Positions 40,901 to 43,900 of a stretch of DNA of 64,000 nt are shown here, piece after piece; position 1 is the first letter of the stretch, and each line of letters begins with the position of its first letter. The stretch covers positions 1,640,144 through 1,704,143 of the forward strand of contig NC_092034.1 of assembly GCF_042242105.1 (NCBI RefSeq), read 5' to 3'. The position numbers were made by a program, and so were the translations under genes. The notes under the pieces were generated by a model. That model made no database searches. It was not told the DNA's origin and saw nothing but the letters and a program-made list of their open reading frames with translations. This stretch comes from Pempheris klunzingeri (taxonomy: Eukaryota > Chordata > Actinopteri > Acropomatiformes > Pempheridae).

Positions 40901-43900
40901 AATTTAAGTGGAAATACTCAGGTATTCCCTTGTCTGGTCTGCCAGAACCTGAACCAATTCACCGCAGCTTGGTTCCTAAACCATGATTTGGCCACTGCCC
41001 ACATCTAATAATAGCGTGCTTTCATTGATATACTTAGCTGCCTTTAACAACATGATATCTAAGGTCTGGAAGCAGGCAGTTTGATTGGGTAGGTTGTATC
41101 CTGTTACGTTGAATGGCATGGGTCATGGGTCATGGGATCTAATGGCTGCATCATGTTTTGCTCTGAGTTTATGTTAAATGGTCTACTTCCCAAAAGAAGT
41201 CTTCCATAAAATTACTTTTGTAAAGTGATTTTACTGTATCACTTCTCTCTCATGTGGAGCCAAAATAAAAATAAAAAAGCAGATCTAAATAGTTAAGTTT
41301 CTCAAAGGATTTCCAGCTCTTGTAAATACTCAGCTGCTGTTTCAACAGCATTACTGTGTGATAACAGCATTAATGTAACAAATGTCATACAAAAACCACC
41401 ACAATGGTCCTGTGAAGAATGGGGCTTTGAGGTATTGCCTTTTCTCTTTTCCATCCATTCATCCTTTCCCTCTCTGTTTCCTCCCTCCAGAGAAGTGGGA
41501 GATCAACCCCAGCGAGTTGACCTTCATGAAGGAGCTGGGCAGCGGTCAGTTCGGCCTGGTGAGGCTCGGCAAGTGGAGGGCTCAGCACAAAGTGGCCATC
41601 AAGGCCATCAGAGAGGGAGCCATGTACGAGGAGGACTTCATCGAGGAGGCCAAGGTCATGATGTAAGGAGGGGCAAGAGAATAAAGGACAAGGAAACTTG
41701 GCAACTTCCTTTTTTCCAACGAGGAAGTGAAACTGTGTTTGTGTTGCCTCTCCCAGGAGACTGTGTCACCCTAAACTGGTGCAGCTGTATGGGGTTTGCT
41801 TGCAGCAGCGGCCCCTGCTGATCGTGGCCGAGTTCATGGAGAACGGCTGCCTGCTGAACTTCCTGCGGCAGAGGGGCAGGGCTCTGAAGGAGGCGTGGCT
41901 TCTGTCCATGTGCCAGGACGTCTGTGAGGGGATGGAGTACCTGGAATCTAATAGTTTCATCCACAGAGACCTGGTGAGTCACTGAGTGTGTGTGGTTTGT
42001 TGTGCAATTCGATAATGAAACCAGTCGGCTCAAAACTTCACAGCTCATAACTAAAGTGAACTAAACACCTCACTGTGAAAATACTCCACTATGAGGAACA
42101 GTCCTGCACTCAAAACCTTACTGAAGTAAAAGTATGTGAGTACTATCAAAAAGATAAATAAATATAAGTTCCCTGTCAGTGTTTTCCTTTTATATCTGAT
42201 GTTTCTGGATTAACATTACTGCTGCATGTTGCATTTCACTGCTGCAGATGTTTAACCCCTTGAAGGTCCTCAGAAATAATCACGTTAAAGATCCTTACAC
42301 ACATAAATGTGTATGCATAAAAACAACTCTGAAAAATTCACCATCTTGCAAAATTATAAGCAATATGCATGAAAAACTGATAAAATATGCTAAAAATAAA
42401 AATCATAACACACTAGAAAGTGCTGAAGACCCTCAAAGGGTTAAGGTTGAGCTAATTTACTAACTACTTGATATCCTGTTGGGTAGTTTTATCTATATGG
42501 CTGCATCAAAATGTACTTGAGTGTACTGTTTGGACAATCAAGTATATAAACTGCTCTCAAAATGGACAAAATGACTCAGATTGAGGTTGACAGATGAATC
42601 AGTTTGGCCGATTTGGCCTGATGGGATGTTATCCTTGCAGCCTCCACCAGTTTGATTGGGACGTACATCACCGTGATATCTTATCAGTCAGAACCAGTTC
42701 AGATGATATTTGTTATGTGAGGTTTCTGGTTGTTTTTTCTCATCCAGGCAGCCAGAAACTGTTTGGTTAATGAGCACAATGTGGTGAAGGTCTGCGACTT
42801 TGGAATGACCAGGTATGGCTGACACTTATTCGCTTTATGGCAGAGAGTTAGATGAGAAGATCAATACCACTTGAATTGATTTGAATGGAAAATGTGATAC
42901 CAGCAGCTGGTTTGCTTTGCCTAGCTTAGCATAAAGAAACAACTAGCCTGGCTGTGGCAACTAAATCTGCCAACCAGCACCTCCAAAGCTCACTGATTAA
43001 CATGGCTGCAGCTTTATATTTAACTGTTATGACTGGTATCGATCTTCTCAAATAAACTCCTTGCTCAGGAGTGAGCATATTTCCCAAAATGTTCAACTGT
43101 TCCTTTAAGGAAACTAAACTGCTAACATGCATAGATTTAGAATTTAAACAGTGTATAGTGTTTACGGTATCACCTCTATCGTTGCTTTATGTTCATGTTT
43201 GCAGGTACGTTCTGGACAACCAGTACAGCAGTTCTAGTGGAGCCAAGTTCCCTGTGAAGTGGTCTCCTCCTGAAGTTCTCCACTACAGTAAATACAGCAG
43301 CAAGTCTGACGTCTGGTCCTTTGGTGAGGAACCTCAGGCTCAGAGCTGAAAGCAGCGTGATCACAAACAGAGTCAATATACAGACGTGGTGTGACACGAT
43401 TCACATGAAATTCACGTGTTGTGAAAGTTGAAATAGTCAATAGAGCAAGAAACTTTTATTATTTTATTATTTAGATTCTTTAAAAATACTTTATTATCGT
43501 TACATTACAGTATAATAGAGGGAATTCCAATTACAAAACACTTAAAGCTTAAGGTTGCAGCAGCTCTGAGATCTGTTTTAGTACTTAAATCTTAAGTTTT
43601 TTACAACTTTTGAGACTGTAAATTGTTAAAAGCTAAACCTGAACAGATGTGAATGTATTCTGAGTCAGTAATGGCTCCAGTACGCTTCAAATTAAGTTTG
43701 TCAGATGGTTTGAACAGCGCATGAAACCCCCCCGACGTCTTTCTGACGTCAGACTTGATGAATCTGACGAAAACTCCCATTTTACACCAGTTTGAAGCAC
43801 AATAACATACAGCAATACATACAGCAATTAACAAGAAAATTTCCCCCTATGGGGGATAAAATAAAGAAAGTCTAAGTCTAAGTCTAAGACTAAATAGTTT

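Follow-up and report, generated by a model that had tools for sequence, protein, structure and literature searches.

A kinase exon identical between the inverted paralogues tec and txk of Pempheris klunzingeri points to recent gene conversion

The paralogues tec, on the minus strand, and txk, on the plus strand, lie adjacent and head to head in the fish Pempheris klunzingeri and share one kinase exon, labeled K1 here, in identical form, whereas the neighboring exons are diverged. We infer that one or more recent events of non-allelic (interlocus) gene conversion very probably homogenized K1 between the two genes. The window, namely the whole stretch of DNA analyzed, is 64,000 nucleotides long, and all coordinates are window positions.

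Results

The identical block in txk and tec

The sequence at 41478-41667 (+) on the txk side equals the reverse complement of 20152-20341 on the tec side at 190/190 bases, and the identity ends abruptly at both edges in the ungapped register. The block is composed of the whole 172-bp exon K1, which is bordered by AG/GT in both genes, flanked by 13 intron bases upstream and 5 downstream. This agrees with the initial annotation, which had described both the perfect inverted identity with its sharp ends and the make-up of the block. The two K1 copies are located on the same chromosome, separated by 21,136 bases. When the block was searched as DNA against the genome (646 Mb, 439 contigs), just these two copies were returned, such counts being lower bounds. 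In addition, a relaxed search of the window for further K1 sequences yielded nothing below E 0.27 besides the two K1 exons. Each gene thus contains a single K1, which indicates that the exon was replaced in place.

Table 1 Features of the tec/txk window, with the identity of txk exons to their tec counterparts
Feature	Position	Strand	Remark
Transglutaminase gene, neighbor	11981-13623	-	Pfam
tec gene, start to stop codon (PH, BTK motif, SH3, SH2, kinase)	17705..30668	-	As read here
tec K5	18867..19024	-	
tec K4, activation loop	19122..19240	-	
tec K3	19322..19386	-	
tec K2	19472..19688	-	
Intron downstream of tec K1, 5 identical bases	20152..20156	-	
tec exon K1	20157..20328	-	Identical to txk K1
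Intron upstream of tec K1, 13 identical bases	20329..20341	-	
tec SH2c	20954..21028	-	
txk gene	about 37.0 to 44.9 kb	+	
Four-cysteine string near txk N terminus	37028..37039	+	
txk SH2c, directly before K1	40552..40626	+	64.0% identical to tec, 27/75 differ
Intron upstream of txk K1, 13 identical bases (polypyrimidine tract, AG)	41478..41490	+	
txk exon K1 (glycine loop, VAIK lysine, alpha-C region)	41491..41662	+	Identical to tec K1
Intron downstream of txk K1, 5 identical bases (GTAAG)	41663..41667	+	
txk K2	41757..41973	+	72.4% identical to tec, 60/217 differ
txk K3	42748..42812	+	80.0% identical to tec, 13/65 differ
txk K4, activation loop	43205..43323	+	76.5% identical to tec, 28/119 differ
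txk K5	44001..44158	+	63.9% identical to tec, 57/158 differ
Another protein kinase gene, neighbor	47354-47713	+	Pfam
ABC-2 type transporter gene, neighbor	59999-61353	-	Pfam; match in 59999-60493 under curated cut-off

Identity of the two genes

The gene reading from 30668 down to 17705 contains a PH domain, a BTK motif and an SH3 domain according to Pfam. Its N-terminal half with the PH region matches human TEC best (2lul, E 3.9e-66), followed by BTK (8gmb, 3.3e-44), and its SH3 domain scores 82 bits against TEC (1gl5) compared with 57 for the next SH3-only entry. The plus-strand gene, arranged head to head with it, harbors SH3, SH2 and kinase domains (Pfam). Peptide queries made from the tec PH domain and BTK motif gave no second hit of either kind in the window, the next match having E 0.54. 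They do recover both features in the loci of two more Tec-family genes on contig C9, which are itk-like and btk-like in appearance. With the txk SH3-SH2 region as query, the top entry is the multi-domain BTK structure 4xi2 (196.8 bits over SH3 and SH2); among SH2-only entries, TXK (2dm0, 131.2 bits) lies barely above BTK (2ge9, 129.5).

A cysteine string near the N terminus is a hallmark of TXK, and in mammals TEC and TXK share their orientation. The plus-strand gene is taken as txk because it has this string, lacks a PH domain and adjoins tec, as TXK adjoins TEC in mammals. The identities tec and txk agree with this evidence. As a pair, the genes resemble the Tec family kinases TEC and TXK in domain order, in the relatives of the PH, SH3 and SH2 domains and in the cysteine string of txk, and differ from them in that K1 is not independent between tec and txk here.

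Divergence of the other exons

The exon preceding K1 and the kinase exons K2-K5 differ between the two genes at many positions (Table 1); K6, of unequal length in tec and txk, is omitted from the counts. Approximate differences of 11/65 and 30/119 proposed earlier for two of these exons are close to our values for K3 and K4. Over five SH3/SH2 segments, the identity of tec and txk is 58.0-74.4%. Synonymous sites differ at 0/32.3 in K1 versus 80.8/139.7 pooled over SH2c and K2-K5 (dS about 1.1), and at the pooled rate the probability of zero synonymous differences in K1 is about 8e-13. Concatenating the alignments of six exons leaves 24 bases as the longest identity run besides K1. Moreover, a run of 172 is reached in 0/20000 column shuffles, in which the longest run has 53.

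Tract borders and flanks

Immediately before the AG of K1, 11/11 bases are identical, versus 22/66 in six other exon pairs. The GTAAG after K1 is explicable by the splice consensus alone and is uninformative. The 40 bases upstream of the block show a weak likeness between tec and txk that includes a 7-base gap. Their score is the best of 91 upstream-flank pairs and is equaled by 41/20000 random 40-base pairs drawn from both gene spans, exons included, and by 14/1000 shuffles; at 60 bases the pair takes rank 2 of 91. The downstream flanks show no similarity (rank 79 and 91 of 91; 743/1000 shuffles score as high). The upstream likeness may stem from an older tract that has since decayed or from pyrimidine-rich sequence matching by chance, and the upstream end of the tract may be less sharp than the ungapped view implies.

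About 0.6 kb from K1, in the txk intron between K2 and K3, lies an insert (about 42250-42447) whose inverted ends are TTTAACCC-like. Of the 80 genome matches listed with the 2.2 kb around it as query, 75 belong to this insert. Many of these matches are 95-100% identical, and the insert is therefore probably a recently active short element. It is a possible source of breaks near K1. In tec, the intron downstream of K1 holds a self-complementary dispersed element (19723-20067) with relatives at about 16.6 and 22-26 kb.

Gene conversion as the preferred explanation

A short tract replaced in place, with borders at the limits of homology and 21 kb away from its counterpart on one chromosome, fits non-allelic gene conversion. 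The proposal of a recent conversion between inverted copies at this distance is well supported by the isolated perfect exon, its diverged neighbors and the single K1 in each gene. The process would start with a break within or near K1 of one gene, whose repair would be templated by K1 of the other, strand invasion taking place inside the exon, where usable homology exists. Heteroduplex would then spread as far as the exon edges and a few bases into the introns, halting where these turn unrelated, and the intermediate would be resolved without a crossover. Conversion between copies as little as about 64-80% identical, as these would be expected to have been, is unusual, which counts against this explanation; a literature search on the identity limit for conversion turned up no paper.

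The exchange appears recent. With substitution rates that we assume, about 50 putatively neutral sites that are unchanged (synonymous sites and 18 intron bases) put the 95% upper age at about 12 My for a rate of 2.5e-9 per site per year and at about 30 My for 1e-9. Synonymous sites alone give about 19 My and 46 My at these two rates. A literature search narrow on the tec-txk pairing found no published gene conversion between them. Searches on txk in teleosts or zebrafish and on Tec family evolution gave no title on this subject among the matches listed, and those with peptide strings returned nothing relevant.

Alternative explanations

Repeated conversion is a possible though clearly less probable account, overlapping with the preferred one: K1 would have been homogenized repeatedly over a long period, the last event taking place between copies that were already similar, which would ease the homology problem. 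High GC3 is the expectation of GC-biased repeated conversion, and in K1 it reaches 51/56, versus 168/210 for the other tec codons (p 0.07) and 150/210 for the other txk codons (p 0.0016); the corresponding K1 counts are 42/56 in the itk-like gene and 37/57 in the btk-like gene. The weak likeness of the 40 bases upstream of the block points in the same direction. This likeness, however, falls to second rank at 60 bases and has no equivalent in the downstream flank, and GC3 differs between exons anyway, from 0.50 to 0.87 outside K1. An explanation without any exchange, in which strong purifying selection maintained the identity of both exons, has a negligible probability. K1 does encode the nucleotide-binding loop and the catalytic lysine, but the identity extends to its synonymous sites and to the pyrimidine tract. 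Furthermore, when the shared peptide is compared with K1 of the itk-like gene and of the btk-like gene, only 35/57 and 38/57 positions agree, which means that the family as a whole does not keep this exon constant. Chance and constraint as the source of K1 identity are rejected in view of the synonymous sites.

An assembly or polishing error, by which the true txk (or tec) exon was overwritten by its paralogue, is unlikely. The contig is chromosome-scale (C23, 18.65 Mb), the window contains no N, and no second txk copy or haplotig is present among the matches returned (40 of 679 candidates scored). The borders of the block coincide with the exon edges, and assemblers do not normally confuse paralogues so divergent. 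A template switch that inserted one K1 copy into an intron of the other gene, followed by loss of the native exon, would also yield a short perfect inverted block. We regard it as less likely still, given that it requires two events, that the relaxed search of the window revealed no remnant of a second K1, and that the block borders lie at splice sites at both ends.

Direction of the proposed conversion

Under gene conversion, tec is slightly the likelier donor. The yardstick used here consists of provisional human TEC and TXK sequences, by which the 16 diagnostic sites of K1 comprise 12 TEC-type, 2 TXK-type and 2 of neither type. The initial annotation had proposed tec as the probable donor from TEC-type residues, and K1 is indeed TEC-type by 12:2. 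The argument is much weakened by the uncopied txk exons, which by the same provisional yardstick are also mostly TEC-type, with 9:3 in K2, 3:1 in K3, 5:3 in K4 and 5:7 in K5, summing to 22:14. By this measure, K1 does not differ significantly from txk K2-K5 (Fisher p 0.18) or from tec K2-K5 (22:9 in sum, p 0.46). Since the uncopied txk exons share this composition, the TEC-type residues may largely represent a shared older state, human TXK being the derived gene. GC3 is 0.91 in K1, 0.80 in the other tec codons and 0.71 in the other txk codons, which leans to tec as the donor, yet GC-biased conversion fits these values too and they provide only a hint. A donation from tec, and hence a Txk kinase with a Tec lobe, is plausible.

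Gene order and crossover

Because tec and txk are arranged head to head, a crossover between the K1 copies would swap the 5′ halves of the genes. We compared five trees of K2-K5, with few sites and with the provisional human TEC and TXK sequences. Of the five, the tree that pairs tec with TEC and txk with TXK, here called straight, is best, and the quartet sites number 4 for the straight versus 2 for the swapped pairing with these provisional sequences. Swapped 3′ halves are disfavored (AU 0.035; few sites, provisional human sequences), as expected if no crossover took place. The other three trees are not rejected (AU 0.245 with tec and txk as sisters; 0.525 and 0.51 for the remaining two). 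Without constraints, txk groups with human TXK at support 53, and tec does not group with human TEC. The present arrangement of the genes has probably not been exchanged.

Discussion

The identical K1 exons of tec and txk look like an unusually clean case of a known process, gene conversion. In PMC2720389, BMP8A and BMP8B are described as an inverted pair about 235 kb apart that undergoes interlocus conversion with mosaic concerted evolution, and a study cited there indicates that conversion drops off beyond about 55 kb. Both this pair and tec/txk are inverted paralogues on one chromosome with islands of near-identity among diverged exons (PMC2720389). The criterion of that survey (PMC2720389) was >97% identity across two successive exons together with their intervening intron, in contrast to tec/txk, where a single exon is identical and, apart from a few bases, both introns lie outside the tract. 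According to PMC8476164, newts show conversions among tandem paralogues of Nav channels and among duplicate exons of Nav1.4. There, as proposed for tec/txk, functional residues are carried from one paralogue to another by a short conversion. The newt genes, however, are in tandem, or their exons duplicated, and the trait is under selection, whereas tec and txk are inverted and have no known advantage from the exchange. Ectopic recombination between dispersed inverted repeats has also been characterized in yeast meiosis (PMC10570019).

If the preferred explanation is correct, conversion acted on a single short exon of two inverted paralogues that are old and have diverged strongly, at a similarity lower than ectopic conversion is usually expected to need, and the ATP-site lobe of two immune kinases was either altered or kept equal. 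At K1, phylogenies of the exon, the assignment of orthologues and the mapping of short reads would then mislead.

The identical K1 exons are inverted repeats within both coding regions, placing an inverted repeat inside two genes. If this holds, a crossover between them would invert 21 kb and trade the Tec half with PH, SH3 and SH2 for the Txk half with the cysteine string, SH3 and SH2, each traded half staying in frame with a kinase. That the 190-bp repeat acts as a reversible switch, with hybrids of the Tec and Txk kinases arising in a subset of individuals or cells, is extremely unlikely.

Other features of the window

Tandem arrays are present at 32422-32639, 32957-33519 and 56218-56805, with periods of 29, 36/74 and 20 bp; the first two are located between tec and txk. 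An inverted dispersed repeat, 82% identical, links the intergenic 33552-33748 with 39447-39674 in a txk intron. Downstream of txk, the plus strand at 48984-51380 contains an open frame of 799 residues, rich in lysine and glutamate in the part seen, for which Pfam gives no match at E 0.001. The strand opposite this frame is partly open, over 388 residues.
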